Shown: positions 1 through 24,200 of the stretch, piece after piece
How the letters are laid out: every line of letters begins with the position of its first letter
Numbering within the stretch: position 1 is the first letter of the stretch
Virus record (IMG/VR): IMGVR_UViG_3300037963_005455
Location: 1-30,968 of that record
From: a virus
Reading direction: 5' to 3' (one strand)
Length of the DNA: 30,968 nt
Program-made: the position numbers and the translations under genes
Notes under the pieces: model-generated
The model's database searches: none
Told to the model about the DNA's origin: nothing
Seen by the model: the letters and a program-made list of their open reading frames with translations, nothing else

Positions 1-302
1 AAAAAGCTTTAACTATTTATGGTGACGGAAGTAAGGAGAGAGACTTTACCCATGTTGATGATATAGTTGACGGTTTAATTAAGATATGGGAAACAGAAAG
101 TTATGGAATAATTTTTGAACTAGGAAGAGGCAGAAAGTTTTCTCTAAACGAAGCGGCGAGGCTTTATAAACCATCATTTGGGATAACTTACCTTGAAGAC
201 AAAAAGGGGGAGGCGCAAAGTGTTGAATGTAATGCTGAGCTAGCTAAAACACATCTAAACTGGGAAGCAAAAAAGAATTTAGAAGATTGGATTAAAAAAT
301 GA
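1..302 (+). CDS. NDP-sugar epimerase/dehydratase (SDR), C-terminal part
   Basis: Partial: the reading frame is open from base 3 to the TGA at 300-302, so about 99 C-terminal residues are visible and the 5' end lies before the window. The segment GDGSKERDFTHVDDIVDGL is the signature that follows the substrate-binding region of extended SDR sugar-nucleotide epimerases/dehydratases (UDP-glucose 4-epimerase type). ELGRGRKFSLNEAARLY matches the later 'nvG.g...s..e' block. The catalytic YxxxK and the NAD-binding GxxGxxG must lie upstream, so the substrate cannot be assigned. The stop overlaps the next start as ATGA, so it is translationally coupled to the GDP-mannose dehydratase. It probably makes or interconverts a nucleotide sugar in the cytoplasm. 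Confidence 0.85.
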   Translation, partial: KALTIYGDGSKERDFTHVDDIVDGLIKIWETESYGIIFELGRGRKFSLNEAARLYKPSFGITYLEDKKGEAQSVECNAELAKTHLNWEAKKNLEDWIKK

Positions 303-1339
303 AAAAAATAATTATTACAGGAGTAACAGGTCAAGACGGTAGCCATATGGCTGACTATTTATTGAAAAATACGGAACACACAATTATCGGAGGAGTGCGT
401 AGGTTAAGCGTAAAAAACCATCAAAACATTGAACACCTTTTAAATAATTCTAGATTTTTTCTTATTGATTTAGACGTAACAGACCCTCAAAACACACAAA
501 AAGTAATCTCAGAGCATAAGCCTGATTACTTTATTAATTTTGCAGCCAACTCTTTTGTCGGCAGTAGTTGGGACATGCCCTTTAATCACATGCAAACTAA
601 TTGTATGTCTGTTTTACATCAATTGGAAGCAATTCGTCATCATGCCCCGTATTGCAGATACTATAACGCAGGTAGTTCTGAAGAATTTGGAGATGTAATC
701 ACAGCACCTCAATCAGAAGAACATCCTCTACGACCTAGAAGCCCATATGGAGCGTCTAAATGTGCTGCTAGACATTTGGTCAAAGTTTACAGAGAATCTT
801 ATGATATATATGCCGTTCAAGGTTGGCTTTTCAATCACGAAGGAACCAGAAGAGGGGAAGAGTTTGTTACAAGAAAAATTACAAAGAATGTTTCTCGTAT
901 CGCTGATGAGTTTGCGCGTAAAGAATATTTTGAACCTCTAAAATTAGGAAATGTAGACTCTAAAAGAGATTGGAGTGACGCAGAAGATTTTATTAATGGG
1001 ATCTGGCTAATGTTAAATCAAGATAGAGGCAATACAGATGACTATGTTTTATCCTCTGACGAAACTCATACAATCAGAGAATTTGTTGAAGAAGCCTTTA
1101 ATTTTGCTGGGTTTCACAGATCAATGTGTAGATGGGAGGGGGAGGGAGATACCACTAAGTATTATCATGGCAACGACCTGTTAATGGAGGTTGATCCTCA
1201 GTTTTATCGTCCAGCAGAGGTAGACCTGCTTTTAGGCGATTCAACAAGAGCTAGGAAAGAATTGGGTTGGCAACCAAAAACTAATTTTATTCAGTTGGTT
1301 AACAAAATGGTTAAACATGACATGGAGCTATTGACTTAG
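299..1339 (+). CDS. gmd: GDP-mannose 4,6-dehydratase
   Basis: 346 aa, the usual length for the family. It converts GDP-D-mannose to GDP-4-keto-6-deoxymannose, precursor of GDP-fucose, GDP-rhamnose and perosamine-type sugars. Seen: the dinucleotide-binding GVTGQDG at residues 8-14; SSEEF at 126-130, the Ser/Thr-Glu catalytic block; Y150 and K154 of the YxxxK pair in SPYGASK; and LFNHEGTRRGEEFVTRK at about 177-193, near-diagnostic for Gmd (usual form LFNHESPRRGETFVTRK). The start is the ATG at 299, overlapping the upstream stop as ATGA. No reductase (fucose or rhamnose synthase) follows in this window, though the truncated SDR upstream could be one. Family assignment is firm; the final sugar is unknown. 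Confidence 0.93.
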   Translation: MKKIIITGVTGQDGSHMADYLLKNTEHTIIGGVRRLSVKNHQNIEHLLNNSRFFLIDLDVTDPQNTQKVISEHKPDYFINFAANSFVGSSWDMPFNHMQTNCMSVLHQLEAIRHHAPYCRYYNAGSSEEFGDVITAPQSEEHPLRPRSPYGASKCAARHLVKVYRESYDIYAVQGWLFNHEGTRRGEEFVTRKITKNVSRIADEFARKEYFEPLKLGNVDSKRDWSDAEDFINGIWLMLNQDRGNTDDYVLSSDETHTIREFVEEAFNFAGFHRSMCRWEGEGDTTKYYHGNDLLMEVDPQFYRPAEVDLLLGDSTRARKELGWQPKTNFIQLVNKMVKHDMELLT

Positions 1340-7881: not shown

Positions 7882-8482
7882 TCAAAAATATTTAGTATTC
7901 GATACTGAAACAGAAGGTTTAAATTTATTCTCTTCTAAAACATGGCAGCTATCTTGGATAGTCTGTCAGGGAAACAAGACATTAGAAACTCATGACGAGT
8001 TTATAATTCACAAAGAATTAAATATCCCTGAAGTAGTCAAGAAGATCACGGGGTTTAATTGGGATACTTATAACAGAAAAGCTAAACCTTTAGACGAGGT
8101 TTGGAGCAAGTTCGAAAAGTATATATTTGACCCTCAATACATTGTAGTGGGACAAAACCTTTTAGGCTTCGATGTTTACATGCTTGCTGTATTACAAAGG
8201 CTGTTGGGTCAAGAGCCAGATTATTCTTACTTGCCTCGTATTTTAGACACAAGAGCTTTAGGCAAAGCTTACAGAGAAGAGCTAGAGAGACCTAAAGGCA
8301 ACTTGCTTAGTTGGCAATATAAGATAATTAATGACAGAAGCCTCAAGGCAAAGGTTTCGCAAAACCAACTTTTAAAGTTTTTTGATATAGAATTTGATGA
8401 GAGCAAGCTACACAATGCTCTTTACGATATTAAGATGTGCTACCAAGTATTTCTTAAGCTTAAAAAACACATGGATTTATAA
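7868..8482 (+). CDS. DnaQ-like 3'-5' exonuclease (DEDDh)
   Basis: 204 aa proofreading-type exonuclease. ExoI motif FDTETEG gives D12 and E14; ExoII VGQNLLGFDVYML gives D102; ExoIII HNALYDIKMCYQV gives H182 and D187. The complete DEDDh set is therefore present. Length is close to the catalytic half of the Pol III epsilon subunit, and no separate clamp-binding tail is apparent. It lies between the PHP and polymerase genes with overlaps of 14 nt and 1 nt (TAATG), so the three should be made in similar amounts. It is expected to proofread for the adjacent polymerase. The order PHP-Exo-Pol recalls PolC, where the exonuclease is inserted in the PHP domain. Confidence 0.85.
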   Translation: MLPSNQKYLVFDTETEGLNLFSSKTWQLSWIVCQGNKTLETHDEFIIHKELNIPEVVKKITGFNWDTYNRKAKPLDEVWSKFEKYIFDPQYIVVGQNLLGFDVYMLAVLQRLLGQEPDYSYLPRILDTRALGKAYREELERPKGNLLSWQYKIINDRSLKAKVSQNQLLKFFDIEFDESKLHNALYDIKMCYQVFLKLKKHMDL

Positions 8483-13991: not shown

Positions 13992-14004
13992 GTGTAAGAC
14001 ACTT
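13990..14004. promoter_or_regulatory. perfect 6-bp inverted repeat before a start codon
   Basis: AAGTGT-AAG-ACACTT is a perfect inverted repeat ending 3 nt before the ATG at 14008. In RNA it would form a hairpin at the initiation site; in DNA it could be a small operator. There is no U-run, so it is not a terminator. The function is unproven. Confidence 0.35.
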
Positions 14005-14007
14005 AAA

Positions 14008-14490
14008 ATGCCTTACACCATCACATTTCCAGATAGGAAATTGTATCAAAGTCTCTCCTTTGATGCTGATATAAAATTCCCTCAACTCTCAGAATATACA
14101 AAAAAATTTTGGGTTTTAAGAGAATATCAGAAAACAGGGGCAGAGGCTTTTTTGTCTAAAGCGAAAGAAAAAGACGATAAAGTTAAAACTTTTTCCTCTT
14201 TTTCTATAGAAAAATCGTTTGAGGATGACGAGCTAGTTGTAGAGTTAGTTGAAAACATTAAGTTTTTTGATGATTTTGATTATTTTGCAAAAGCAGAAAT
14301 AGAAGAAACTGGTGATGAAGAGCTTGATGCATTGTTAAATGAAGTTAAGCTTTCTGATTTTAATAAAAGAAAAATTATAGATGCTTTTGGTATAAAAGCT
14401 GACACAGAATTTTTTGATTTTAAAGAGGAAGAAGATTGCCAAAAAGAATGCGAAGAAGATTGCAGTTGCGATTGTAGTGAGAGCGAATAG
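14008..14490 (+). CDS. acidic hypothetical protein with Cys-rich tail
   Basis: 160 aa, not recognised. It is strongly acidic, with repeated Phe/Asp patches (KFFDDFDYFAKAEIEE). The last 17 residues hold five Cys (C144, C148, C152, C154, C156) among Glu/Asp, as in a metal-binding tail. Its 3' end overlaps the heptose epimerase by 14 nt if that gene starts at the GTG at 14477, the same overlap length as two other junctions in the window (6133-6146 and 7868-7881). Confidence 0.7.
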   Translation: MPYTITFPDRKLYQSLSFDADIKFPQLSEYTKKFWVLREYQKTGAEAFLSKAKEKDDKVKTFSSFSIEKSFEDDELVVELVENIKFFDDFDYFAKAEIEETGDEELDALLNEVKLSDFNKRKIIDAFGIKADTEFFDFKEEEDCQKECEEDCSCDCSESE

Positions 14491-15319
14491 AGTTTTAATT
14501 ACTGGGGCGGGAGGATTTATTGGGTCCAACCTCGCATCTTTCCTAGAGCATAGAGGATACGATGTAACTAGGTTTGATATAAATCTTGGTAATTCTGGTC
14601 AGCCAGATATCTTAAACCAAGATATAGTTATACATCTTGGTGCTAATTCTAGCACAACAGAAACAGATGTTAAAAAAATCATAGAGCAAAATTTTGAATA
14701 CTCAAAAAAACTTTATGAAACTTGCTCTCAGATAGATGTTAAGTTTCAATATGCTAGTAGTGCATCTGTTTATGGAATTTCTAAAACTTTCAACGAATCT
14801 GATTTTTGTAAGCCATTAAGTCCATACGCTTTTAGTAAATACATGTTCGATTGTTGGTTAATGAATCAAGATTATCCATATCAAGGATTCAGATACTTTA
14901 ATGTATATGGACTAGGCGAAGATAAAAAAGGCAAACAAGCTAGCCCTGTTTCTAAATTTATTAAACAAGCGCAAAGAAATGGCGAGATAACACTTTTCGA
15001 GAAAAGTGAAAAATATAAAAGAGATTTTGTTTCTGTAAATGATGTTTGTGAGATTCATTACAGAATGCTAAACCTTGATTGTTCAGGCGTTTATAATGTA
15101 GGCACAGGCCAAACAACTTCTTTTAAAGATGTGGCAGATATTATCAAGTCTCGCTCACATTGCGAAATTAAAGAAATACCTATGCCTAAAGAATTAAAAG
15201 GCCAATATCAGAAGTTTACAAAAGCGAACAACTCTAAGCTTATAGAAGCAATAGGGGATTACAAATGGGAGACTATAGAAGAATATGTGGAGGAGAATAT
15301 AGATGTTTACCTTAATTAA
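14477..15319 (+). CDS. hldD: ADP-L-glycero-D-manno-heptose 6-epimerase-like SDR
   Basis: 280 aa from the GTG at 14477; an upstream ATG at 14414 would add a Lys-rich stretch lying wholly inside the previous gene, so the GTG is preferred. Seen: GAGGFIGS (10-17), GANSSTTETD (55-64), ASSASVYG (93-100), Y117 and K121 of YxxxK, FRYFNVYG (138-145), KRDFVSVNDV, SGVYNVGTGQTTSF and LKGQYQKFTKA. These blocks line up one by one with E. coli HldD (GACSSTTEWD, YASSAATYG, GFRYFNVYG, FKRDFVYVGDV, GTGRAESF, LKGRYQAFTQAD). HldD epimerises ADP-D,D-heptose to ADP-L,D-heptose for LPS inner core. The kinase and nucleotidyltransferase genes of the same pathway lie about 6 kb downstream. Confidence 0.88.
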   Translation: MRANRVLITGAGGFIGSNLASFLEHRGYDVTRFDINLGNSGQPDILNQDIVIHLGANSSTTETDVKKIIEQNFEYSKKLYETCSQIDVKFQYASSASVYGISKTFNESDFCKPLSPYAFSKYMFDCWLMNQDYPYQGFRYFNVYGLGEDKKGKQASPVSKFIKQAQRNGEITLFEKSEKYKRDFVSVNDVCEIHYRMLNLDCSGVYNVGTGQTTSFKDVADIIKSRSHCEIKEIPMPKELKGQYQKFTKANNSKLIEAIGDYKWETIEEYVEENIDVYLN

Positions 15320-15569
15320 ATCTGTTTTAAAATCAATTGAGTTATTTTTATCTTTAAAAAATAAGACTTTCTATCTACAATTAAAACGAGACCATGAAGA
15401 AGAAAGAAAAAGAATTATCCAAGAACTTGAAGACATTAGGACTAATGGCGGTGATGCCGACCGTGCTGATCTCTTGCGCGACGAACTCATCCGTGAAGAC
15501 AACTCCTTTAAACATCTATCAACCTTCTACTCTCAGTTTGACAAAAGGGACTCCAATAGAGACAAGTAA
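15303..15569 (+). CDS. small amphipathic coiled-coil protein, possible i-spanin partner
   Basis: 88 aa. The N-terminus (FTLIKSVLKSIELFLSL) is hydrophobic but broken by Lys/Glu, so a clean transmembrane helix is doubtful; a charged helical segment (EEERKRIIQELEDIR) and RADLLRDELIREDN follow. Its last 176 nt are overlapped in another frame by an o-spanin-like lipoprotein gene, the classical Rz/Rz1 layout, which suggests the i-spanin role. If it is not a spanin it is a small phage protein of unknown function. It overlaps the epimerase gene end by 17 nt. Confidence 0.55.
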   Translation: MFTLIKSVLKSIELFLSLKNKTFYLQLKRDHEEERKRIIQELEDIRTNGGDADRADLLRDELIREDNSFKHLSTFYSQFDKRDSNRDK

Positions 15570-15663
15570 AGGCATTTATATTCCACAGAAAGACGAAATT
15601 TGGCACTCTGATGCTAGATTTAGGAGGCTAGAAAGACAGCTTTATTTTCCTAGCGGAAAATAA
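15394..15663 (+). CDS. o-spanin-like outer-membrane lipoprotein (Rz1 type)
   Basis: 89 aa. A basic N-terminus is followed by a hydrophobic stretch (LGLMAVMPTVLISC) ending in a lipobox with C28 (L-I-S-C). The mature part is short and rich in Ser/Thr/Pro, typical of Rz1-type outer-membrane spanin subunits that fuse membranes at the end of lysis. The gene starts inside the preceding 88-aa gene, in a different frame, and extends 94 nt beyond it. The other lysis genes (holin, endolysin) are 1.4-3 kb downstream. The lipoprotein call is good; the spanin call is by architecture. Confidence 0.68.
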   Translation: MKKKEKELSKNLKTLGLMAVMPTVLISCATNSSVKTTPLNIYQPSTLSLTKGTPIETSKGIYIPQKDEIWHSDARFRRLERQLYFPSGK

Positions 15664-15688
15664 TTTGTTTTCAGTGTAGATTCTAGTA

Positions 15689-15970
15689 ATGGCTTATATA
15701 ACTGGAATCCCTATTAGAGATAGTATGCATCCAGAAACCTCCACAGATAGTGGGGTTTGGCAAGATTATCGCAAAATTCTAACTGGCGAGTTTGTCAGTG
15801 GAGATGGTGCGACCACTAATAGGTATGGTGAATTTGCCTCTGATATTAGAGAATATAACAGAAAAATTGATTCTTTAACTGGATTTTGGGGTCACACTGG
15901 TCTTTTTCTTACTCCAATGGATGAAGGGTTTAGATACGAGGGAGATGGTGATTTTGGAACTTGGCCTTGA
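15689..15970 (+). CDS. hypothetical protein, possibly virion-associated
   Basis: 93 aa, not recognised. Rich in Gly, Thr, Asp and aromatic residues (TSTDSGVWQDYRK, TGFWGHTGLFLTP), a composition more like a small structural protein than an enzyme. No membrane helix. A possible -10-like TAGATT lies 6 nt before the ATG, but no convincing -35 was found. Confidence 0.6.
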   Translation: MAYITGIPIRDSMHPETSTDSGVWQDYRKILTGEFVSGDGATTNRYGEFASDIREYNRKIDSLTGFWGHTGLFLTPMDEGFRYEGDGDFGTWP

Positions 15971-16002
15971 TTTTTTTTATTGTAAGCATATAATATATGC
16001 AT
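15967..16002 (+). promoter_or_regulatory. sigma70-like promoter with palindromic -10
   Basis: TTGATT (15967-15972), a 16-bp spacer and TATAAT (15989-15994); the ATG at 16003 follows after 8 nt. The -10 lies inside a perfect inverted repeat GCATAT-AAT-ATATGC (15986-16000). The 12-mer TAAGCATATAAT (15983-15994) recurs exactly at 20733-20744. An earlier in-frame ATG at 15997 would lie before the expected transcript start. Confidence 0.6.
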
Positions 16003-16227
16003 ATGACTAATATTGAATTTTCCGATCAAGAATTGTCAGCTTTAATCCAGCTATTGGATATCGCTGTAAAATCTCAAGGGCTTAATGTTGCAGAAGCTGC
16101 TGTTATTTTGGCTAACAAAGTAAAGGGTTCTGCACAACCTGTAGCTCCTCCTGTCCCAGAAGTAGATGCAGAAGTTGAGTTTGCAGATTCCATAGAATCT
16201 CCAGAGGAAATTGAAACAGAGGAATAA
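16003..16227 (+). CDS. small acidic hypothetical protein
   Basis: 74 aa from the ATG at 16003, chosen over the ATG at 15997 because the latter is upstream of the predicted transcription start. The N-terminal half is helical (FSDQELSALIQLLDIAVKSQ, then VAEAAVILANKVK); the C-terminal half is a Pro/Val/Glu-rich acidic tail. The N-terminal layout resembles small phage proteins of unknown role. It has its own promoter, so it is expressed separately from the upstream operon. Confidence 0.62.
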   Translation: MTNIEFSDQELSALIQLLDIAVKSQGLNVAEAAVILANKVKGSAQPVAPPVPEVDAEVEFADSIESPEEIETEE

Positions 16228-16235
16228 TATTTCCC

Positions 16236-16270
16236 TTGACCATTACAATTCTGTAATATATATTTGATTT
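16236..16270 (+). promoter_or_regulatory. sigma70-like promoter of the outer-membrane protein gene
   Basis: TTGACC (16236-16241), a 17-bp spacer and TATATT (16259-16264), then exactly 6 nt to the ATG at 16271. This is the best-spaced promoter in the window and predicts a leaderless mRNA. Together with the terminator after the gene it forms a self-contained single-gene transcription unit. Confidence 0.65.
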
Positions 16271-16942
16271 ATGAAGAAACTAATTCTTACACTACTGGGC
16301 GCTTCAATTATTAGCGCAGCCTCTGCTACCACTGTAGCAACGGATTTGTCCGTTGAAGGTGGGGCATCAATTTCAAACTTTAGCACCGACAGGGGTCTAG
16401 CAACAAGAGAAGACTCCATTGGGGTTTCTCTCGCCCTATCTACCGCTCTGGGAGGGGGAGATCTTTCATTTGGTGCATCACTTTTCGACACTGACGGTGG
16501 TGGCGAAATGGACTTTGGAGCCAGCTACGGCCTTGGGGTTGATCTTTTCGGTCAAAACATTGGCCTGACTGCCGCTCTAAAAGATACCGAGTCTATCTTT
16601 GGAGACAGAGAAGAGCTATCTTTGACTGCTGATTATACTTACATTGCAGATTTTTCTGTTGGTGTTTGGTATGAGGACAACAACGATTGGTTCGGAGTGG
16701 AGCTTGGAGCTTCATATGACTTCAAGACACCTGTCGAAAATCTTACCTTAAGCCCTTTTGTGACTGTAAATATTGCAGAAGAATACGAATCACTTGAGCT
16801 TGGCGTTAAAGCAAATTATGTTTTGACAGAGGATATTTCTATCGTTGGAAAAGTCTCCTTTAACGATAACGACCTTGAAGGTTCTTCTCTTGAAGTAGAT
16901 CAAGAGTGGATTGTTGGTGCAGGATTGTCATACAACTTCTAA
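16271..16942 (+). CDS. outer-membrane beta-barrel protein with signal peptide
   Basis: 223 aa. The N-terminus (KK, then hydrophobic LILTLLGASIISAASA) is a Sec signal peptide with probable cleavage after A19. The mature part alternates polar and apolar residues with short Gly/Asp/Asn turns, as in an 8-10-strand barrel, and ends GAGLSYNF with a terminal Phe, the Bam-recognised beta-signal. It therefore most likely inserts in the host outer membrane, like Lom-type phage proteins. It has its own promoter and terminator (moron-like), appears richer in Gly and GC than neighbouring genes, and may come from a bacterial host. Possible roles are blocking superinfection or altering permeability; neither is shown by the sequence. 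Confidence 0.8.
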   Translation: MKKLILTLLGASIISAASATTVATDLSVEGGASISNFSTDRGLATREDSIGVSLALSTALGGGDLSFGASLFDTDGGGEMDFGASYGLGVDLFGQNIGLTAALKDTESIFGDREELSLTADYTYIADFSVGVWYEDNNDWFGVELGASYDFKTPVENLTLSPFVTVNIAEEYESLELGVKANYVLTEDISIVGKVSFNDNDLEGSSLEVDQEWIVGAGLSYNF

Positions 16943-16966
16943 TTTAAATTAGTTTTAATTATAAAA

Positions 16967-16998
16967 TAAAAAAGCCACCTGCACGGGTGGCTTTTTTT
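16967..16998 (+). terminator. intrinsic terminator after the outer-membrane protein gene
   Basis: A-rich lead, stem GCCACC / GGGTGGC with loop TGCAC, then a run of seven T. A strong Rho-independent terminator located 25-55 nt after the stop codon; it isolates the outer-membrane protein unit from the lysis genes that follow. Confidence 0.85.
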
Positions 16999-17015
16999 GT
17001 GTAGAAGTTAATTAC

Positions 17016-17333
17016 ATGGAACCTGAAAAGTCTTTAATCAAAGAATTCCTCAATGGAGGTTGGTTAGTCCCGCTTGTAGGTGCTGCTGCGATGTTTGCTA
17101 GGCTCTTATCAGGTAATAATGGATTAACGCTTAAACAACAGTTTAAAAGGGTGATTACAGCAGCCCTAGCTGCTGGCATAGCTTGGTTTGTTTTGGAACA
17201 AACTGATGTTTCATCTTTAACTAAGGCAATTACTTATGGGATTATTGGTGTAATAAGCCCAGAGGTCATTAGTGGGATAGTAAGAATGGGCGAAAAATTT
17301 GCTAAGAACCCAGAAAAATTTCTTAAAAAATGA
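17016..17333 (+). CDS. holin
   Basis: 105 aa with three hydrophobic segments: about 14-33 (GGWLVPLVGAAAMFARLLSG), 46-60 (VITAALAAGIAWFVL) and 72-89 (ITYGIIGVISPEVISGIV), and a Lys-rich C-terminus (KFAKNPEKFLKK). Size, topology and position two genes before the endolysin support a phage holin resembling the LydA type. It would form the inner-membrane hole that releases the signal-less endolysin. It overlaps the next gene by 4 nt (ATGA). No clear promoter was found between it and the terminator just upstream. Confidence 0.75.
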   Translation: MEPEKSLIKEFLNGGWLVPLVGAAAMFARLLSGNNGLTLKQQFKRVITAALAAGIAWFVLEQTDVSSLTKAITYGIIGVISPEVISGIVRMGEKFAKNPEKFLKK

Positions 17334-17935
17334 GACCAAAGTTTATTGTTTACTGTTTAGCTGCTATTTGTTTAGCCTTTGGTTTCAAGGGGCTAAGTCT
17401 TACGGAAGATATAAATCAAACCCTCGCAGAGAATGCCCGACAATCTGAGTCGTCTATCATGGAAATAGGTATGTGCTTTGATTGGTATGGCGTAATCATT
17501 GTTGATTCTGTTGTGAAGACCTCTCACGGTCAAATAACACCGACAGAAATGGTAGAAATTTTAAAAGAAGAAAGCGGCTATAAGGATGAATATCTAGAAG
17601 GATATAAGAAAGATATAACACCAGATGAGGTTGAATATGCCGACTTTGTGTTTCAACAGGAAAAAAAGATAAGTGCTTACGTTAATGAGTTAATAGAGTG
17701 GGGAAATGCTGGTGATACAGACAGTATTAAAGAGTCCATTCCAAGAATGTATGAGATGACTGATCCTACAATTGAGGCTATCAATAACATTATGGACACA
17801 AAAATGTATTACAATGAAGAACAATCTGAAATTCTTCATGGTAAAATTAAAACATTTTCTGATTTTATGATTTTAGCAATCGTCTTATCAGTTGTAATGT
17901 CAATTTGTGCATCATTTAGCAAAAGGTGTAGATGA
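17330..17935 (+). CDS. two-TM protein with periplasmic helical (4HB_MCP-like) domain
   Basis: 201 aa. TM1 at about 5-20 and TM2 at about 177-195 enclose ~155 mostly helical residues expected in the periplasm, ending with a short basic cytoplasmic tail (SKRCR). The segment YGVIIVDSVVKTSHGQITPTE with the following helices resembles the four-helix-bundle sensor of methyl-accepting chemotaxis proteins, which carries a similar 'D..hkv..g.i...e' block, but HAMP and signalling domains are absent. It lies between holin and endolysin, with ATGA overlaps on both sides. A membrane protein with a periplasmic sensor domain here is a candidate antiholin or lysis regulator (compare T4 RI). That role is inference. 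Confidence 0.65.
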   Translation: MRPKFIVYCLAAICLAFGFKGLSLTEDINQTLAENARQSESSIMEIGMCFDWYGVIIVDSVVKTSHGQITPTEMVEILKEESGYKDEYLEGYKKDITPDEVEYADFVFQQEKKISAYVNELIEWGNAGDTDSIKESIPRMYEMTDPTIEAINNIMDTKMYYNEEQSEILHGKIKTFSDFMILAIVLSVVMSICASFSKRCR

Positions 17936-18552
17936 ACTTTAAAGGCAAAAAAGAAGTAGTAAAAGCTGTGCAGAAACTCCTTGGAGTCTCTGCTGATGGT
18001 GCTGATGGACCTGTAACTTGGAATGCTATTTTGGCTAAGTTGTCCACTAAAGAGACTGTTGTCTCTGGTGGGAGTGTAGCAGAGAAAATGGTATCCTTGG
18101 CGAGAGAAGAAATAGGAGTTTCCGAAGTTGACGGCAGTAATTGTGGGCCAAGAGTAGATGAATATAAAGCTGCCACATGGTTAGACGCAGACAAAGGTTG
18201 GCCTTGGTGTGCTGCTTTCATCTGTTGGCTTGTAAGAGAAGCTATAGAGGGAGAAGATGTAAAATTCAAGAGACCTAGAACTGCTGGAGCTTGGGATTTT
18301 GAAAACTGGGCCAAACAACAAAGCACAAATGGAGTCGAGCTTCGCAAACCTACAAACGAAGACATTAAAGCGGGTGATATTGTTGTATTTACTTTTTCTC
18401 ATATTGGATTAGCTGTAAAGGACGCAGACTCAAGTGGTTATGTAGTTACCATTGAAGGTAACACAAATGGCGCTGGAAGCAGGGAGGGTGGCTCTGTTTT
18501 AGAAAAGAAAAGGCACGTTTCAAAAATCAGAAGTAGAATCAGAATTGTTTAG
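17932..18552 (+). CDS. endolysin: peptidoglycan-binding plus CHAP domain
   Basis: 206 aa. Residues ~5-35 (VVKAVQKLLGVSADGADGPVTWNAI) form a short PG_binding_1-type repeat. A CHAP/NlpC-like amidase or endopeptidase follows, with C93 in WPWCAAFICWLVREA, H157 in FTFSHIGLAV and E175/N177 in TIEGNTNG as catalytic residues. It lacks a signal peptide, so release needs the holin two genes upstream. The ATGA overlap with the preceding membrane protein makes holin, sensor-like protein and endolysin one coupled lysis unit. Cleavage site in peptidoglycan (amide or peptide bond) cannot be decided from sequence. Confidence 0.85.
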   Translation: MNFKGKKEVVKAVQKLLGVSADGADGPVTWNAILAKLSTKETVVSGGSVAEKMVSLAREEIGVSEVDGSNCGPRVDEYKAATWLDADKGWPWCAAFICWLVREAIEGEDVKFKRPRTAGAWDFENWAKQQSTNGVELRKPTNEDIKAGDIVVFTFSHIGLAVKDADSSGYVVTIEGNTNGAGSREGGSVLEKKRHVSKIRSRIRIV

Positions 18553-18572
18553 ATTTTTTCATTTAAATAGTA

Positions 18573-18594
18573 TATAATGGCATATACTAGACTA
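18573..18594 (+). promoter_or_regulatory. AT-rich -10 elements, possible promoter
   Basis: TATAAT at 18573-18578 and TATACT at 18583-18588; the second ends 6 nt before the ATG at 18595, the same spacing as the 1331 promoter. The -35 is weak, so this is the least certain of the set. Confidence 0.35.
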
Positions 18595-18888
18595 ATGCAA
18601 AAAGTCAAAATTAAAGTAAGTAGGTATGACATATTTGATTATGTCACTAGTCGTTCAACTTTTGACCCTATCGAAAAATGCATTGACCCTTTAAGATACG
18701 AGGTTTTTGATACATTTATTTACGATAGCAAAGAAAAGAAAAACATAACTCAGGATGAAAAATTCTGTAAGTTTGAGTGGGAGCTAACAAAACTTAGAAA
18801 TAACGCTCGGCACATGCAGCCTGATGAAATAGACAGGATATGTGAAGAGCTTGAGGAGATAGCTCCAGATTCCCTTGATTTAAATTAG
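18595..18888 (+). CDS. hypothetical protein
   Basis: 97 aa from the ATG at 18595; the upstream in-frame ATG at 18577 lies inside a TATAAT box and is less likely. Charged and mixed helix/strand, with an acidic helical C-terminus (DEIDRICEELEEIAPDSLD). No membrane segment and no recognised family. It sits between endolysin and the first glycosyltransferase-like gene with a 2-nt gap to the latter, so it may share a transcript with it. Confidence 0.65.
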   Translation: MQKVKIKVSRYDIFDYVTSRSTFDPIEKCIDPLRYEVFDTFIYDSKEKKNITQDEKFCKFEWELTKLRNNARHMQPDEIDRICEELEEIAPDSLDLN

Positions 18889-18890
18889 TT

Positions 18891-19757
18891 ATGAGATTTG
18901 GGATAGATATTGAGGGTCATAATGGACTTGGGGACACAGTTCAATTCACAAATATTCCTGAATATTTCTACAAGGTAACAGGCGGCGTAAAATTAATCGA
19001 CATAAAAAAAACTTGGGTTTTTGATCACAATCCATATGTATTGAGAGACGTTCATGATTTCCCTGTCTTCAAACAGCATGACGAAGATGGGAACCCTTGT
19101 AAACTACCTGTAGTATATGACGAGACATTTAAAGCTAATCTTTTGTGGAGGACAGATGGTAATGGTCAAAAGGATGCCACATCTAGATCTTACTGGTTTT
19201 CCCGTGCTATAGGTGTAGAGCCTAGAGATCATATTGAATTAGATTTACCTAGAGGTCCACGCCTGTATAAATACGAAGATCCAAAAGAAGTTAATCCTAC
19301 TCAGATAGCTATTCATATTGGACCTAGTAACCATCCGCGCAGAGGAGGGGGTGAAGGTAGGTATATACCTAAAAATGTCTTAGAAAGAATAAAACTAAGA
19401 TACCCAAATTATGACATCATACAAATAGGATCGCTAAATGATCATGAGTCTGAGTTTATAGATAAGAGGGGCGCTGAAATTTGGGAGACTGTAAAAATCA
19501 TAGCTCAAAGCGCGATATTTATAGGGGTTAATAGTGGCCCTATGCATATAGCTAATTGTTACCCCCATATCAATAAAAAATATATTATTACTTCCACTGT
19601 AGAAAACGAATCTGTTGAAGATATTACCCAGTTTCTACCTTTAGTTGGGGAGTCTTTTGATAGAATGGAATGGGCAGGTTGGGTTGATCATGGTTGGCAA
19701 TACTACAATACAAAAGATTTTGATATAGGCTGCACTTACTCTTACAAAAAAATTTAA
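18891..19757 (+). CDS. GT9/heptosyltransferase-like glycosyltransferase, copy 1
   Basis: 288 aa. The N-terminus has GLGDTVQFTNIPEYFY (12-27), the glycosyltransferase family 9 'GD.v..tp....l' block. AIHIGPS (140-146), YDIIQIG (174-180) and IGVNSGPMHIA (211-221) match the GT9 C-terminal domain, where '..G.dtGpmHlA' lines the donor nucleotide site. Known GT9 members transfer L,D-heptose from ADP-heptose onto LPS core. The 100 central residues are atypical, so the acceptor is open. A paralogue follows with a 1-nt overlap (TAATG). Because the same genome carries ADP-heptose genes, heptose transfer is a reasonable inference. Confidence 0.7.
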   Translation: MRFGIDIEGHNGLGDTVQFTNIPEYFYKVTGGVKLIDIKKTWVFDHNPYVLRDVHDFPVFKQHDEDGNPCKLPVVYDETFKANLLWRTDGNGQKDATSRSYWFSRAIGVEPRDHIELDLPRGPRLYKYEDPKEVNPTQIAIHIGPSNHPRRGGGEGRYIPKNVLERIKLRYPNYDIIQIGSLNDHESEFIDKRGAEIWETVKIIAQSAIFIGVNSGPMHIANCYPHINKKYIITSTVENESVEDITQFLPLVGESFDRMEWAGWVDHGWQYYNTKDFDIGCTYSYKKI

Positions 19758-20695
19758 TGCAAAAAATAGGTATACAAATGAGTAAGGGCAACATGCCCGA
19801 TAGCGAAGATGGAGGAGTCGGTGATAAAATTTGTTGGTCGTCACTACCAGAAGCGTTTTACAAATGGTATGGCGTTAAATTAATAGATGTAAAAAATTCT
19901 TGGATATTCGATCATAATCCATACATTTTGAGAGGAGAGAAAGGAGAAGATAACTATCTTGCTCCTCTAGAGATTAACACAGAGGAAACAGGCATAGGTA
20001 TGCCTATTTTGTTCTCTTATCATGAGGACTGGCCAATTGCCTATAAAGCTGCAAACTTTCATTTAAAACACGAAGGAGAAATTAGAAACTTGTTTGTTCT
20101 TCCCCTACATACAACACACCATCAACTCATCGGTGGATCTGGCAGCAACACACACTTTCGTCATGCTTGTGCAGACATACAAGACTACGCAAAACCTGAG
20201 CTTGATTTCCCCAGAGGGCCAAGACTTTACAAATACGAAGATTCAAAAGTTAAGCCAAGTCAAGTAGCCATACACATTGGGCCAAGTCACAGTATGAATC
20301 AGTTAATACCTGATTCAATAATTAAAACAATATCTGAGAGATACTCTAACTATGACATTGTGCAAATCGGAGGGCAAAACGATGCTCCCTCCCCGTTCAT
20401 TGACAAAAGGGGAGGTTCTCTCTGGGACATGACAAAAATTATTGCGGAAAGTTCTATTTTTATAGGCATCAATAGTGGGCCAATGAATATTGCGAATTGT
20501 TATCCACATATTAATAAAAAAATAATTTTAATTCAAAATGAACTCCTATCTCTTGATGGTATAATGAGGTTTTATCCTAGAAATACACAAAAATATGGGA
20601 CTGCGGGATTTGAGGGATGGGTTGATTATGGCTGGCAATACTATAACAGCACCGAATTTGATTTAGGAGCTACTTATTCCTACAAAAGAATATAA
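19757..20695 (+). CDS. GT9/heptosyltransferase-like glycosyltransferase, copy 2
   Basis: 312 aa, a diverged tandem copy of the preceding gene. Shared blocks in the same order: GD..(W/Q)....PE.FYK, the W-(V/I)-FDHNPY segment, FPRGPRLYKYED (151-162), AIHIGPSH, YDIVQIG (199-205), FIDKRGG, IGINSGPMNIANCYPHINKK (236-255) and a C-terminal GWVDYGWQYYN...YSYKRI. The His in SGPMH is Asn here (SGPMN), and an insertion of ~25 residues with HTTHHQLIGG separates the halves. Divergence suggests a different acceptor or linkage rather than redundancy. It is coupled to copy 1 by a 1-nt overlap. Confidence 0.7.
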   Translation: MQKIGIQMSKGNMPDSEDGGVGDKICWSSLPEAFYKWYGVKLIDVKNSWIFDHNPYILRGEKGEDNYLAPLEINTEETGIGMPILFSYHEDWPIAYKAANFHLKHEGEIRNLFVLPLHTTHHQLIGGSGSNTHFRHACADIQDYAKPELDFPRGPRLYKYEDSKVKPSQVAIHIGPSHSMNQLIPDSIIKTISERYSNYDIVQIGGQNDAPSPFIDKRGGSLWDMTKIIAESSIFIGINSGPMNIANCYPHINKKIILIQNELLSLDGIMRFYPRNTQKYGTAGFEGWVDYGWQYYNSTEFDLGATYSYKRI

Positions 20696-20715
20696 TTATT
20701 CCCCTGCACTTGGGG

Positions 20716-20749
20716 TTGTGTAATATAATATATAAGCATATAATTAATT
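20716..20749 (+). promoter_or_regulatory. sigma70-like promoter sharing a 12-mer with the 15967 promoter
   Basis: TTGTGT (20716-20721), a 17-bp spacer and TATAAT (20739-20744), then 5 nt to the ATG at 20750. TAAGCATATAAT (20733-20744) is identical to the -10 region at 15983-15994. A short CCCC/GGGG hairpin at 20701-20715 precedes it but has no U-run. Confidence 0.55.
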
Positions 20750-20938
20750 ATGGACACAATTATTCAATTAATTCAGGATAATCCTTGGTGGGGAGTAGTA
20801 GCTTCTGCTGTTGCCCTCGCTTCTGCCATCACTGCTGCAACCCCAACCCCGAAGAAAGGGACTTTCTGGGCTAAAATCTACGCTCTGATTGATTGGGCGG
20901 CTTTAAATATTGGCAAGAGTAAGGATAAAGGGGAATAA
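20750..20938 (+). CDS. small one-TM protein, holin-like
   Basis: 62 aa. One hydrophobic segment (WWGVVASAVALASAITAA, about 13-30), then TPTPKKGTFWAKIYALIDWAALNIGK and a Lys-rich end. Similar mini-proteins ('..aLaSAi.aaTPtPk......y..iD..AlN.gkak') are common in phages, often annotated as hypothetical or holin-like. It could be a second holin or pinholin, though it lies outside the lysis unit and has its own promoter. Confidence 0.65.
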   Translation: MDTIIQLIQDNPWWGVVASAVALASAITAATPTPKKGTFWAKIYALIDWAALNIGKSKDKGE

Positions 20939-20947
20939 ATTTATTCC

Positions 20948-20982
20948 TTGAATAATCAAGACAACAGGCTATAATACTCTGA
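20948..20982 (+). promoter_or_regulatory. sigma70-like promoter of the sugar cassette
   Basis: TTGAAT (20948-20953), a 16-bp spacer and TATAAT (20970-20975), then 7 nt to the ATG at 20983. It would drive the coupled cupin-kinase-nucleotidyltransferase-methyltransferase-HAD run as a leaderless transcript. Confidence 0.6.
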
Positions 20983-21357
20983 ATGAGTATTGAGCCTGTT
21001 TTTAGTCGTTTAGAAGTCCATCCAAAAGGTTGGGGAGAAGAACTTTGGATTACCAATAACAATAAGTATTGTGGTAAAATTCTTCAATTCAAAAAGGGTG
21101 CATCTTTTTCCATGCACTACCATATAAAAAAAGAAGAAACTTGGTGTGTTACGAGGGGAGCTTTAAAGCTAGAATACTTTGATCTAGAAAAAGCAGAAAG
21201 AAAAGAGAGAGAATTAAGGGAGGGTGATGTGGTTCATTTAAAACCATGTGTTCCGCATAAGCTTACCGCAATGGAGGAATCTAGTGTTTTTGAAGTTAGC
21301 ACTGAACATTTCAATGAAGACTCTTACAGGGTAGAAAAAGGTTCCTCTCAAAAATGA
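20983..21357 (+). CDS. cupin protein, phosphomannose isomerase type II-like
   Basis: 124 aa single cupin barrel. H45, H47 and E51 in SMHYHIKKEETW and H92 in VPHKL supply the usual metal ligands. KGWGEELWITNN and GKILQFKKGASFS resemble the C-terminal isomerase half of ManC/AlgA ('kPWG.y......y.vK.i.v.pG..lSlq.H.hRaEhW'). Possible reactions are mannose-6-phosphate isomerisation, which would feed GDP-mannose, or another sugar-phosphate isomerisation or epimerisation. It is the first gene of the heptose cassette, joined to the kinase by ATGA. The cupin fold is clear; the substrate is not. Confidence 0.75.
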   Translation: MSIEPVFSRLEVHPKGWGEELWITNNNKYCGKILQFKKGASFSMHYHIKKEETWCVTRGALKLEYFDLEKAERKERELREGDVVHLKPCVPHKLTAMEESSVFEVSTEHFNEDSYRVEKGSSQK

Positions 21358-22100
21358 AGTTTTTAGTCATAGGGGAAAGTTGTAGTGATAGATTTTGCTA
21401 CGGTAAAGCTGAGAGGCTTTGCCCAGAAGCTCCAGCGCCAGTTTTTATACCTGAGAGTGGGGTCAATAATTTAGGTATGGCGAGTAATGTATATAGAAAT
21501 ATACTTGCTATTGATGAGAGCACCAACAAAGGAATTCCGTATAGGAATAAAGTAAACCTGTTTACCAATGAGACAGAGGGTCATAAAACTCGTTACATTG
21601 ATATACAGTCAAATCAAATGTTTTTAAGGGTTGACACGGACAGTTACTCTCATTGCGGCTCATTGCCTGATGATATAGAAGAGTATGATGCTGTTATTGT
21701 ATCCGACTACAACAAAGGCTTTTTAACTGATCTAAACCTTAGAGAGATAGCTCACAGAAGTAAACTTTCTTTCTTAGACACTAAAAAAGATTTTAATATT
21801 GATTGGTCAGATCATTTTACATTTATAAAAATAAACGAAAAAGAGTTTTTAGAGAATGGCTGGAAGCATAGAGCAGAAAATGTAATTGTCACAAAAGCGT
21901 CTAAAGGTTGTTGGTATAATCACAAAGATTACCCAATCAAAAACCCATCTGATGTAAGAGATGTATCTGGAGCGGGTGACACCTTTCTTGCTGCGTTTTC
22001 ATATTCTTATACAGCAACAAAAAATGTAGAAACTGCTATAATATTTTCTCAAGATTGCTGTCAACGAGTTATCAGAAAAAAAGGTGTGACCACCATATGA
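21354..22100 (+). CDS. hldA: D-glycero-beta-D-manno-heptose 7-phosphate kinase-like (PfkB)
   Basis: 248 aa PfkB-family sugar kinase of the RfaE/HldE domain I type. Seen: FLVIGESCSDRFCYGKAERLCPEAP (split pattern at 3-27: 'vlVvGD...D.y.yG...RisPEaPvPv'), NNLGMASNV (38-46, usual GGAANVA), VSDYNKGFL (116-124, usual LSDYgKG.L) and DVSGAGDTF (203-211) with catalytic D209. It is about 60-70 residues shorter than HldE domain I, mostly in the region after the sugar-binding segment. The ATP- and sugar-binding signatures remain, so activity is plausible. It acts after GmhA in ADP-heptose synthesis. ATGA overlaps join it to the cupin and nucleotidyltransferase genes. Confidence 0.8.
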   Translation: MKFLVIGESCSDRFCYGKAERLCPEAPAPVFIPESGVNNLGMASNVYRNILAIDESTNKGIPYRNKVNLFTNETEGHKTRYIDIQSNQMFLRVDTDSYSHCGSLPDDIEEYDAVIVSDYNKGFLTDLNLREIAHRSKLSFLDTKKDFNIDWSDHFTFIKINEKEFLENGWKHRAENVIVTKASKGCWYNHKDYPIKNPSDVRDVSGAGDTFLAAFSYSYTATKNVETAIIFSQDCCQRVIRKKGVTTI

Positions 22101-22597
22101 AGCACAAAAAAATAATTACATATAAAGAACTTTTGCAAGAAAGGAAAATGGCCAGAGACATTGAAGCCTTCGGAATAAAAAAGTTTTTTATATTTACTAA
22201 TGGGTGTTTTGATTTGTTCCATGCTGGTCATGCTAGCTTATTAAGTTCTATGAAAAATGCTTGTAGCCTTAACTCTAAATTAATCGTGGGAGTTAACGGG
22301 GATGCTAGCGTAAAATCACTAAAAGGAGAAAGTAGACCAATAATGTCTGCTAAGCAAAGAGCTTATACAGTTGCTTGCCATGAATCTGTTGATTGGGTTT
22401 TTATCTTCAATACAAAAACTGTAGCTAAACAATTAAAAGAGATGCAATTTGATTTTTGGTGCAAGGGTGGAGACTATAGCGAAGAGTCTTTAAATAAATC
22501 AGAGGTAAAAGCAAAAGGGGATACTATACTTAAGTTTATACCCTTTGTTGAAAATATAAGTAGCACAGCTATAATAAATAAAATAAAAAATGACTAA
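22097..22597 (+). CDS. hldC: D-glycero-beta-D-manno-heptose 1-phosphate adenylyltransferase-like
   Basis: 166 aa from the ATG at 22097, which overlaps the kinase stop (ATGA); an upstream in-frame ATG at 22055 would lie wholly inside the kinase gene. Cytidylyltransferase-fold enzyme of the HldE domain II type: TNGCFDLFHAGHASLL (34-49) with the HxGH nucleotide site at 42-45, VGVNGDASVKSLKGESRPI (64-82), ESVDWVFIF, KGGDY (123-127) and ISSTAII (154-160). These match E. coli HldE C-terminal blocks in order. It would make ADP-heptose from heptose 1-phosphate and ATP. Kinase and transferase are separate genes here, whereas they are fused in E. coli HldE. Confidence 0.85.
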   Translation: MKHKKIITYKELLQERKMARDIEAFGIKKFFIFTNGCFDLFHAGHASLLSSMKNACSLNSKLIVGVNGDASVKSLKGESRPIMSAKQRAYTVACHESVDWVFIFNTKTVAKQLKEMQFDFWCKGGDYSEESLNKSEVKAKGDTILKFIPFVENISSTAIINKIKND

Positions 22598-23315
22598 GCA
22601 AATAGCATTACCTTACTACAGCGCAGAGATGCAAGATTTATCTGCGTTAAGTTTGGTGGGAGATTCTAAATCCTCAGACCCAAATATGTTTTTGGATATA
22701 GGTTGTGGCAGACCTAAATATTGCAACAACACAATGCTCCTTGAGGAAAATGGTTGGGAAGGAATTTGTGTAGACATAGAAGACTTTTCAGAGGAATTTA
22801 AAGAAAAAAGAAAAACACCCTTTTACCAACTCGACACAACAAGTGATGAGTTTATTGAAAAATTAAAGGAAAGTTTCCCACGGAAATTTATTCAATACAT
22901 ATCTTTAGATGTAGACGTAGCTTCCTTGGCTACCTTAGAAAATTTACTAAAAAATGGCTTTCAGTTTGCTTTTATGACCTTTGAACATGACTACCATTGG
23001 GCTTTAACATATGCGAGAAGGGTTGCGTATGATAAAGCAACAGAGTGGGGATGCGAGGGTAGGACTAGAGAACAAGTTGAAAATTGCAAATTTAAGTCTA
23101 AATCTCTTTTAGAACAAAAGGGATGTAGCCTTCTTTTTGAGAATGTCTCTTTTCATGAAAAAACAACAGGAGATGTATTACACCCGTGGGAAGATTGGTG
23201 GATTAACCCTAGCTGTTTTAATTATTATCATTTGTTATTTTTAGAATCTCTTACAAGTAAAAATATACATTTTAAAGAATGCTATAAAAGAATAAGGCTA
23301 TCTAGAGGGGAATAA
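22590..23315 (+). CDS. class I (FkbM-like) SAM methyltransferase
   Basis: 241 aa. Motif I is FLDIGCGRP (34-42), followed by CVDIEDF, where an acidic residue normally binds SAM ribose. YISLDVDVASLATLENLL and the following AFMTFEHDYHW resemble FkbM-type O-methyltransferases ('D.iklDvEG.E...L.g...'). It overlaps the nucleotidyltransferase by 8 nt (ATGACTAA), the same junction as at 1801. In this cassette, methylation of a heptose or other glycan is the simplest role. The substrate is not evident. Confidence 0.65.
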   Translation: MTKQIALPYYSAEMQDLSALSLVGDSKSSDPNMFLDIGCGRPKYCNNTMLLEENGWEGICVDIEDFSEEFKEKRKTPFYQLDTTSDEFIEKLKESFPRKFIQYISLDVDVASLATLENLLKNGFQFAFMTFEHDYHWALTYARRVAYDKATEWGCEGRTREQVENCKFKSKSLLEQKGCSLLFENVSFHEKTTGDVLHPWEDWWINPSCFNYYHLLFLESLTSKNIHFKECYKRIRLSRGE

Positions 23316-23319
23316 AAAC

Positions 23320-23670
23320 ATGGATAAGAAAAAAACATACATTGTGGACATTGACGGGACAATCTGTAGACATGATAGCAAATCAACCCCGTATAGTCGA
23401 GGTAGACCAATAAAAGAAAGAATAGATTTCTTCAATCAGTTATACGATGCTGGTCATACAATAATTTATTGGACCGCCAGAGGAGGGAATAGTGGGGTTG
23501 ATCATAGCGAGCTAACTGAAAAACAACTAAATGAATGGGGGGTTAAAAGAACAGAATTAAGAATGGGGAAACCATCCTATGATTACTGGATTGACGATAA
23601 GGCTTTTAATGTGCAAGATTTCTTTATGACGGATGTGAGGACAGGAGAAACAAAATCAATGACTTTATGA
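23320..23670 (+). CDS. HAD-superfamily phosphatase, capless
   Basis: 116 aa. HAD motif I VDIDGTIC gives D10 and D12; motif II YWTARG gives T52; motif III K84 in MGKPSYD; motif IV IDDKAF gives D92 and D93. GGNSGVDHSELTEKQLNEWG is typical of small HAD proteins found in surface-polysaccharide loci. It could fill the GmhB step (heptose 1,7-bisphosphate to 1-phosphate) missing between the kinase and the nucleotidyltransferase, but it is smaller than GmhB and lacks its zinc-binding Cys loop. A GAGGGG-type ribosome-binding site precedes the ATG. Overlaps the next gene by 4 nt. Confidence 0.75.
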   Translation: MDKKKTYIVDIDGTICRHDSKSTPYSRGRPIKERIDFFNQLYDAGHTIIYWTARGGNSGVDHSELTEKQLNEWGVKRTELRMGKPSYDYWIDDKAFNVQDFFMTDVRTGETKSMTL

Positions 23671-24200
23671 TATCAGACAAGGCTAAAAATATGTCTTCCG
23701 CAGGGCATATTAAAAAATCAATAAATACAGGTTACGAGGGGCAACAAAGATTTTACGACTCTTGCAGGGCGGCGGGGAAAGAAATAAAGAAAACCAGCCA
23801 ACAAGATGATATAAAAAATCATACTGATTTTGTAGTTGATGGGGTGGGATTTGACGTAAAAGGACTAAAACAAACACAAAAAGAAGGTAAGGTAGTCTTA
23901 GAGATAAAGAACGTGCAGGGTAAAATGGGCTGGTGCAATGGTGAACAAAAGCCAGCATGGATAGCATTCGACTATGGGGCTTTCTTCTTATGTGTTAAAA
24001 ATGACGATTTATTTGACCTCGCTCACACTTGTGACTGGACTAAAAAGGTCTCAAATTTCAAAGATTCCCTGTATAAAGGATATACTAGGAAGGGTAGAGA
24101 AGATTTAATGACCACTGTTTTACTGTATGATATACTAAATACCTGCGAACATTGGTTCTTACCATATGAAGAATATCGTTCCCCTATGGAACTTTTATAG
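23667..24200 (+). CDS. putative PD-(D/E)XK phage endonuclease
   Basis: 177 aa. E24 in TGYEGQQRFYDSC, D54 in HTDFVVDG, and D63 and K65 in GFDVKGLK follow the restriction-fold pattern E-(x)-D-(x8-10)-D/E-x-K, and VLEIKNVQGKMGW continues the core strands. Phage proteins of this type are usually annotated as hypothetical or as endonucleases; possible roles are host-DNA degradation, junction resolution or packaging. It is coupled to the HAD gene by ATGA overlap, yet functionally belongs more with the structural/packaging genes that follow. Confidence 0.6.
   Translation: MISDKAKNMSSAGHIKKSINTGYEGQQRFYDSCRAAGKEIKKTSQQDDIKNHTDFVVDGVGFDVKGLKQTQKEGKVVLEIKNVQGKMGWCNGEQKPAWIAFDYGAFFLCVKNDDLFDLAHTCDWTKKVSNFKDSLYKGYTRKGREDLMTTVLLYDILNTCEHWFLPYEEYRSPMELL

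Follow-up and report, generated by a model that had tools for sequence, protein, structure and literature searches.

The window analyzed here is an IMG/VR virus record of 30,968 bases (IMGVR_UViG_3300037963_005455), a marine phage fragment that carries genes resembling those for nucleoside diphosphate (NDP)-heptose synthesis. With them stands a small cupin gene that probably, judging from gene neighborhoods and similarity, belongs to the pathway and replaces the isomerase GmhA. The cassette consists of the following genes.

14477..15319, + strand: HldD-like ADP-glyceromanno-heptose 6-epimerase, 280 amino acids (aa), GTG start
18891..19757, + strand: GT9-like glycosyltransferase A, 288 aa, optional insert
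19757..20695, + strand: GT9-like glycosyltransferase B, 312 aa, paralogue of A
20983..21357, + strand: single-domain cupin, proposed sedoheptulose-7-phosphate (S7P) isomerase, 124 aa
21354..22100, + strand: HldA-like D-glycero-D-manno-heptose-7-phosphate kinase, 248 aa, short PfkB form
22097..22597, + strand: HldC-like nucleotidyltransferase (NT), 166 aa, HAGH motif
22590..23315, + strand: methyltransferase-like protein (label from an earlier sequence-only reading), optional insert between NT and HAD
23320..23670, + strand: mini-HAD phosphatase, proposed heptose-1,7-bisphosphate phosphatase, 116 aa

The sequence-only reading had proposed a phage-encoded ADP-heptose pathway of six genes, namely the HldD-, HldA- and HldC-like enzymes, the HAD phosphatase and the two GT9-like transferases, and each of the six is an open frame at the coordinates above. 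The start/stop coupling it described was also borne out, with overlaps of 1-8 bases between neighboring genes: 4 bases for cupin/kinase, 4 for kinase/NT, 8 for NT/methyltransferase, 1 for the two transferases, and 4 for the HAD and the gene that follows. Megablast of positions 14000-24200 against a phage collection of 50,697 records, a count that treats duplicate GenBank/RefSeq entries and multiple isolates of a phage as separate, returned no match.

Predicted heptose enzymes of the cassette

The HldD-like protein, the kinase, and the NT all found their best NCBIfam families among heptose enzymes. The HldD-like protein matched the heptose epimerase family TIGR02197 at E 9e-71 (238.6 bits, below the cut-off of 274.6), and the kinase and NT matched rfaE domain I (TIGR02198, E 8e-28, 97.4 bits vs a cut-off of 345) and rfaE domain II (TIGR02199, E 3e-38, 131 bits vs 181.5), respectively. 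ADP-heptose pathway genes are present by these best families, with all scores under the curated (equivalog) cut-offs. Among solved structures, the HldD-like protein was closest to HldD 1eq2 (E 5e-47), its K151 aligning with K178. The sole match of the kinase was 4e84, annotated as 'D-beta-D-heptose 7-phosphate kinase' (E 3e-10), with the DVSGAGDT motif aligned. The best match of the NT was 5x9q, a 'putative cytidylyltransferase' (E 7e-23) that we take to be a HldC. The sequence-only reading had named three families that would speak against it, and the heptose families won in each comparison. GalE, a non-heptose short-chain dehydrogenase/reductase (SDR), reached E 5e-21 with the HldD-like protein, ribokinase reached E 9e-8 with the kinase, and glycerol-3-phosphate cytidylyltransferase reached E 8e-7 with the NT.

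The window NT ends in FVENISST and is without the arginine that a commentary ties to CTP/UTP use (PMC11461863). The NTs of the phages Sf-CH8 and S-T4 read RIGDHSTT and RIGDYSTT, respectively. Nucleotide choice may differ between these enzymes and that of the window.

The mini-HAD keeps the DxDGT, TARG and KP...DD motifs intact and shares 43-51% identity with the HADs of cyanophage cassettes. In NCBIfam it matched small-HAD models alone, and weakly (EcbF-BcbF at E 4e-4; BT0820-type), and no GmhB model matched at E<=0.1. The phosphatase that had been counted in the pathway thus stands as a HAD gene with intact motifs; the expected GmhB-type similarity does not, a mini-HAD being found instead. 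The protein also matched phrog_1238 (E 1.5e-27), a family labeled 'phosphoheptose isomerase'. The same name is given to the mini-HAD in the records of cyanophages P-SSM2, P-TIM68, S-SM2, S-CAM3, Sf-CH8, S-T4 and S-SSM7 (L041-L046, L050), in which the cupin is called 'putative nucleotidyltransferase' or 'cysteine dioxygenase', or is omitted (S-T4). PHROGs carries both such labels for the HAD and the cupin. One passage of a metagenomics paper gives phage 'phosphoheptose isomerase [gmhA]' as a well-characterized gene (PMC9238414), and this listing may rest on such HAD labels. In the sugar clusters of Bellamy (L047, 4859-5757) and S-SM2 (L043, 15304-16286), a class II aldolase-like gene is followed by a mini-HAD, a pairing that suggests another unusual sugar.

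A cupin as the probable replacement of GmhA

The cupin matched the Pfam families Cupin_2 (E 6e-8) and Lyx_isomer PF07385 (22.3 bits, above the cut-off of 20.8), with PF01050 at 22.6 bits, below its cut-off of 23.6. Its HxH, E and H residues (H45, H47, E52, H92) were invariant in 54 sequences. The structure model had a predicted local distance difference test (pLDDT) score of 94.9. It aligned with the archaeal phosphomannose isomerase 7zvy at Z 15.1, with a root-mean-square deviation of 1.8 over 101 residues, and with the D-lyxose isomerase 7nzo at Z 14.7 and 25% identity.

Tblastn of the phage collection found the kinase in 34 records, the cupin in 35, and both in 31. The kinase-only records were a Salmonella contig and two uncultured records, and the cupin-only records were Bellamy (two records), SynMITS9220M01 and AG-345-E15. 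In each of the cupin-only phages, two genes of the GDP-heptose route, for a kinase of HddA type and a transferase of HddC type, overlap that of the cupin. The kinase matched NF049969 at E 7e-83 in Bellamy and E 3e-85 in SynMITS9220M01, and was assigned by 554-bit similarity in AG-345-E15; the transferase matched NF049965 at E 4e-17 in Bellamy and was assigned by similarity in the other two. HldA and HddA have a substrate in common, heptose 7-phosphate, the product of GmhA. Found with both kinase types, the cupin therefore goes with two routes that share this substrate.

Sixteen close relatives of the window (L023-L038, some of them near-duplicates of each other) all carry cupin, kinase and NT. 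The HAD is present in 14, the other two stretches ending first, and hldD in 12, the other four beginning too near to tell. Our local hldD profile also collects other SDRs, and its labels outside this close phage group were not used as evidence. All six T4-like cyanophages examined carry cupin, kinase, NT and HAD, with hldD in 4 of the 6 stretches and varying gene orders, and two distant viral loci (L039, L040) have the order kinase-NT-HAD-cupin. The cassette for which a synteny search had been suggested does recur in other phages in its cupin, kinase, NT and HAD genes; its order varies among the cyanophages, and the methyltransferase is mostly absent from the close relatives. In a cupin tree of 65 rows and 119 columns, in which many forks are unresolved, the archaeal, cyanophage and window-type branches each contain cassette-linked members.

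An NCBIfam scan, GmhA models included, covered 20 window proteins and found no GmhA; the remaining window open reading frames (ORFs) lay outside that scan. GmhA was likewise not found in 29 of 30 related virus records searched. In cellular genomes, the relation of the two genes was scored across 58 genomes from the class of one cupin-bearing bacterium, with thresholds of E<=1e-40 for HldA, E<=1e-12 for GmhA, and at least 147 bits for the cupin. HldA was found in 48, GmhA in 35, and the cupin in 8 (the next-best cupin match reached 97 bits), all eight of which have HldA. Among the HldA genomes, GmhA was present in 0 of 8 with the cupin vs 33 of 40 without it (Fisher p 1.7e-5, kinship ignored). 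At the rate of the 40 cupin-negative genomes, the chance of eight GmhA misses running is about 1e-6.

Archaea were sampled as 141 genomes of one class, 17 of which have HldA at E<=1e-60; four more added through the cupin brought the set to 21. At a threshold of at least 100 bits, 10 of the 21 have the cupin, 6 have GmhA, 1 has both, and 6 have neither. The 16 genomes not chosen through the cupin divide into 5 with the cupin, 5 with GmhA, none with both, and 6 with neither. GmhA is the neighbor of HldA in 4 genomes; in 9 the cupin is HldA's neighbor or fusion partner, and no genome shows both arrangements. This position of the cupin at archaeal HldA is telling. Single-frame HldA-cupin fusions of 444-448 aa occur in three archaeal genomes, their HldA parts scoring 329-350 bits vs the cut-off of 345. 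A fourth genome encodes GmhB-cupin-HldC in one 504-aa frame beside HldA. This locus has the whole ADP-D,D-heptose route except GmhA, so that an isomerase is the natural reading of the cupin.

The sequence-only reading, which mentioned the cupin only in passing, had missed a GmhA in the window and supposed that the host may supply it. That suggestion is not supported: the cupin accompanies the same enzymes across unrelated gene arrangements, is fused to HldA and to GmhB-HldC and replaces GmhA in the bacterial class, and cyanophage hosts often cannot supply GmhA, a GmhA-like match being found in 20 of the 81 genomes of their host family and none in 61. One cellular record, Prochlorococcus sp. 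AG-409-P03 (L153), has the cupin and a 246-aa phage-type kinase in its genome, with no GmhA match.

We consider it likely that the phage encodes a complete route from S7P to NDP-heptose with the cupin in place of GmhA. The route would start at S7P and end at an NDP-heptose, taken as ADP-L-glycero-D-manno-heptose. In step 1, the cupin isomerase would take GmhA's place, converting S7P by metal-dependent aldose-ketose isomerization to a manno-configured aldose phosphate, as the C7 counterpart of the cupin phosphomannose and D-lyxose/D-mannose isomerase reactions. The HldA-like kinase (step 2), the mini-HAD as 1,7-bisphosphate 7-phosphatase (step 3), the HldC-like adenylyltransferase (step 4) and the HldD epimerase (step 5) would complete it. 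From gene content, coupling, co-occurrence, fusions and predicted folds, we infer every catalytic activity in this scheme, together with the cupin and HAD substrates, the nucleotide and the acceptor. A wider proposal, which we advance tentatively, is that the cupin could be a second, non-homologous S7P isomerase family, standing at the start of the ADP- as well as the GDP-heptose route in phages, in archaea of DPANN type and in some bacteria. With it and a mini-HAD, the heptose pathway of the phages would be complete and host-independent, and in hosts without lipopolysaccharide (LPS) heptose it could serve to build a virus-specific glycan by way of exchangeable transferases.

Several observations weigh against assigning the cupin to this step. 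CapF (Z 15.7), vicilin (15.3) and PAC13 (14.8) lie within 1 Z of the isomerases; because CapF, seed vicilins and PAC13 score like isomerases, the fold alone does not decide the function. The best sequence-profile matches among solved structures were an MncA-type protein, oxalate decarboxylases and quercetinase, with lyxose isomerase behind at 1.8e-5. Of the eight cupin-bearing genomes in the bacterial class, two had been found through the cupin, leaving 0 of 6 with GmhA when they are set aside. The GmhA matches in this class all fall under the curated cut-off, and the cupin's neighbor there was GDP-mannose dehydratase in 3 of 3 loci tested. The archaeal counts alone are not significant (GmhA in 1/10 with the cupin vs 5/11 without, p 0.15), and 6 of the 21 genomes have neither gene. 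GmhA-like matches of at least 80 bits occur in 7 of 20 cupin-bearing genomes; several contigs among those seven may be phage sequence that ended up in a cellular bin. SynMITS9220M01 has both the cupin and a GmhA-type isomerase. Moreover, the fetched stretch shows no kinase, NT or HAD at 42 of the 78 new viral loci with a cupin, nor at 49 of the 69 genome loci, so the cupin does not always lie within a heptose cassette. A T4-like terminase/portal context surrounds 34 viral cupin loci, and the kinase was present in 1 of 10 T4-context records searched whole, most of which are fragments.

Further observations concern these loci. In the T4-like group (L072, L074, L089, L119, L127 and others), the cupin stands beside an AAA_28 (NadR-like) kinase, an FAD/NAD oxidoreductase, terminase and portal, with no heptose genes in the stretches. 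In the tree, five cupins from T4 contexts group with that of L114 in a six-member clade (98/86); L114 has an NT and a kinase beside its cupin. SynMITS9220M01 has a second cassette (L048, 13571-16339) with an HddA-like kinase, a true GmhA-type isomerase and a fusion with an HldC-like C-terminal part. The bacterial neighbors in L208, L142 and L167, labeled hldD by the local profile, proved to be GDP-mannose dehydratase; the local profiles for HddA, HddC and GmhA had too narrow a range for sorting bacterial neighbors into families.

Another reading, rather improbable in our estimate, makes the cupin a mannose-6-phosphate isomerase, or an isomerase of broader specificity, that works alongside the heptose genes and supplies the synthesis of GDP-mannose or of a GDP-deoxy-sugar. 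The protein has weak matches to the MannoseP_isomer and GMP_PMI models, an archaeal phosphomannose isomerase is among its closest folds, and genes like GDP-mannose 4,6-dehydratase (GMD) adjoin it in bacterial loci and in L039 and L040, with one also in the window. However, the cupin is fused to HldA and to GmhB-HldC, phage cupins are paired tightly with both heptose kinase types, and an HddC-/ManC-type transferase was not found among the window proteins scanned with NCBIfam. A late action on the NDP-sugar, as an RmlC-/CapF-like epimerase or reductase with GmhA from the host, would agree with CapF as the top structural match and with the GmhA-like matches in 20 host-family genomes, yet it is very unlikely given that the same cupin accompanies ADP- and GDP-type cassettes and is fused directly to a sugar-phosphate kinase, that 61 host-family genomes have no GmhA-like match, and that GmhA is absent from all eight cupin-bearing genomes of the bacterial class.

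Possible uses of the sugar

Glycosyltransferases A and B are 43% identical. The GT9 family PF01075 matched A at E 0.08 (12.7 of 22 bits), and B had no Pfam match. The AlphaFold model of A (pLDDT 83.8) aligned by VIA-align with WaaF 1psw, WaaC, 3tov and TibC at Z 15.0, 14.6, 14.0 and 12.8, respectively; the next rows, at 11.4 and 8.1, begin the non-GT9 structures. The WaaF, WaaC and 3tov alignments cover 227-233 residues. Foldseek placed TibC, complexed with ADP-heptose, first (E 7e-6). A GT9-type fold for the transferase pair is supported by this predicted model.

Tblastn of A against the phage collection gave no match. Among the 16 close relatives, the GT9-like gene is present in 6, vs 16 of 16 for the cupin and kinase. 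Where it is absent, the slot holds 54-112 bases in nine relatives and two other frames in one. Twenty other viral loci have relatives of the GT9-like genes, and none of the 20 shows a relative of the kinase, transferase or HAD in the fetched stretch, so this GT9-like family is not tied to heptose. The methyltransferase-like gene, whose protein had no Pfam, NCBIfam or PHROG match, has relatives in 3 of the 16 close loci, and nine of the 14 readable loci leave its slot empty (-3 to 18 bases). By these slot counts, the genes that make the donor stay constant and the transferases are cargo. The five enzymes of the proposed route would thus form a conserved core, the GT9-type pair and the methyltransferase being interchangeable additions through which the sugar would be attached to, or altered on, a glycoconjugate of phage or host. 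The pair had been called the natural users of the donor, a claim that is weak: 6 of 16 relatives carry a GT9-like gene, and the 20 other viral loci show no heptose gene beside theirs in the stretch. In one relative without the GT9-like gene (G016, a contig of 108,942 bases), 10 of the 74 ORFs of at least 130 aa were scanned for transferases. A GT2-like match (22.7 of 23.3 bits), two weak GT4-like matches and an FkbM methyltransferase were obtained, which are at most possible donor users.

The phages Sf-CH5, Sf-CH8 and Sf-FS3 of Synechococcus WH8102 carry the kinase and the cupin, with NT and HAD confirmed by BLAST for Sf-CH8 and annotated for Sf-FS3. According to a review, the LPS of Synechococcus WH8102 and CC9311 has neither heptose nor 3-deoxy-D-manno-octulosonic acid (KDO) (PMC4515613). 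Since the phages of WH8102 carry the cassette all the same, its common purpose is not to repair or trim a heptose core already present.

We favor a phage-specified glycan or protein modification as the use of the sugar. Protein heptosylation in particular, by the GT9 pair or other phage transferases acting in a TibC/AAH-like manner on a virion protein, a host adhesin or the protein encoded at 16271, is possible, if doubtful. It is named as a use of NDP-heptose (PMC11461863), and the Foldseek result points to it; by VIA-align Z, however, TibC trails WaaF, WaaC and 3tov (12.8 vs 14-15). The sequence-only reading had proposed editing of the host LPS core or glycosylation of a phage component. In the first case, the GT9 pair would put the donor on the inner core of the host LPS and block rivals or reshape the receptor; we regard this as unlikely. 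The fold is nearest WaaF and WaaC by VIA-align Z, but Foldseek ranks a protein heptosyltransferase first, the transferases are optional (10 of the 16 close relatives keep the synthesis genes without them), and the cassette occurs in phages of a host whose LPS is reported without heptose and KDO.

Neighboring genes and known systems

The remaining features recorded in the window are the following.

From position 1, left edge: SDR end, cut by the contig end (NCBIfam scan)
299..1339, + strand: GMD-like SDR (TIGR01472, E 3e-96, 322.9 of 415 bits)
15303: short frame, downstream of the HldD-like SDR and ahead of the outer-membrane-type protein
16271-16942: outer-membrane-type protein, barrel-like, weak MipA match (E 0.002)
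17016: small membrane-type protein, between the outer-membrane-type protein and the endolysin
17932..18552, + strand: endolysin, between hldD and the remaining cassette (phrog_21825, E 2e-15)

The SDR end and the GMD-like gene would be a second sugar-nucleotide module, possibly linked to the heptose cassette. The protein at 16271-16942 is kept in relatives at 43-98%. At 8482-13385, a DnaE/PolC-type DNA polymerase III alpha (phrog_405, E 7e-165) and a Clp-type ATPase (phrog_4871, E 1e-105) stand together.

If the proposed route holds, it would supply a first step of NDP-heptose synthesis for those phages, archaea and bacteria from which GmhA seems to be missing, and phages of marine bacteria would carry their own sugar-donor pathway. 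Two annotations in widely used phage records would be corrected, that of the HAD and that of the cupin as nucleotidyltransferase or cysteine dioxygenase. Because ADP-heptose is an innate immune agonist (PMC11461863), which viruses and archaea make it alone is of wider interest.

Compared with the bacterial ADP-L-glycero-D-manno-heptose pathway (GmhA, HldE or HldA/HldC, GmhB, HldD), the window shares HldA-, HldC- and HldD-like genes, grouped in a coupled cassette, and has a phosphatase gene. It differs in having a cupin in GmhA's place, a mini-HAD rather than GmhB, a short kinase (248 aa vs a 315-position model), and scores that all fall under the curated cut-offs. The sugar clusters of T4-like cyanophages (P-SSM2, S-SM2, S-CAM1/3, P-TIM68) encode the same enzymes at 29-51% identity, but their gene order differs and the window phage has a DnaE-like polymerase. 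With the cupin phosphomannose isomerases (7zvy, 7zvm) and D-lyxose/D-mannose isomerases (7nzo, 2y0o), the window cupin shares the single cupin domain, the HxH/E/H residues and a close predicted fold, at 19-25% identity. To our knowledge, no known cupin phosphomannose or D-lyxose isomerase acts on a C7 substrate. The model of the GT9-like protein shares the overall fold of the heptosyltransferases WaaC, WaaF and TibC at 6-16% identity, below the Pfam threshold, and we take its conserved NSGPMHIA stretch to be the DTGPMH-like motif of GT9 with Asp replaced by Asn.

Tang et al. (2024, Science) reportedly described NDP-heptose biosynthetic enzymes across kingdoms, viruses included. Neither a cupin as pathway isomerase nor a mini-HAD as viral phosphatase was found in the literature searched, Tang et al. 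2024 lying outside it. According to the commentary, viruses and archaea encode functional NDP-heptose enzymes, viral ADP-heptose synthesis included, while the phosphatase is said to be absent in viruses and no cupin is mentioned (PMC11461863). Virus-made NDP-heptose is therefore already in print, and the cupin step is the new claim. Relative to the viral set in that commentary, the window adds a HAD and a cupin, which would complete the set.

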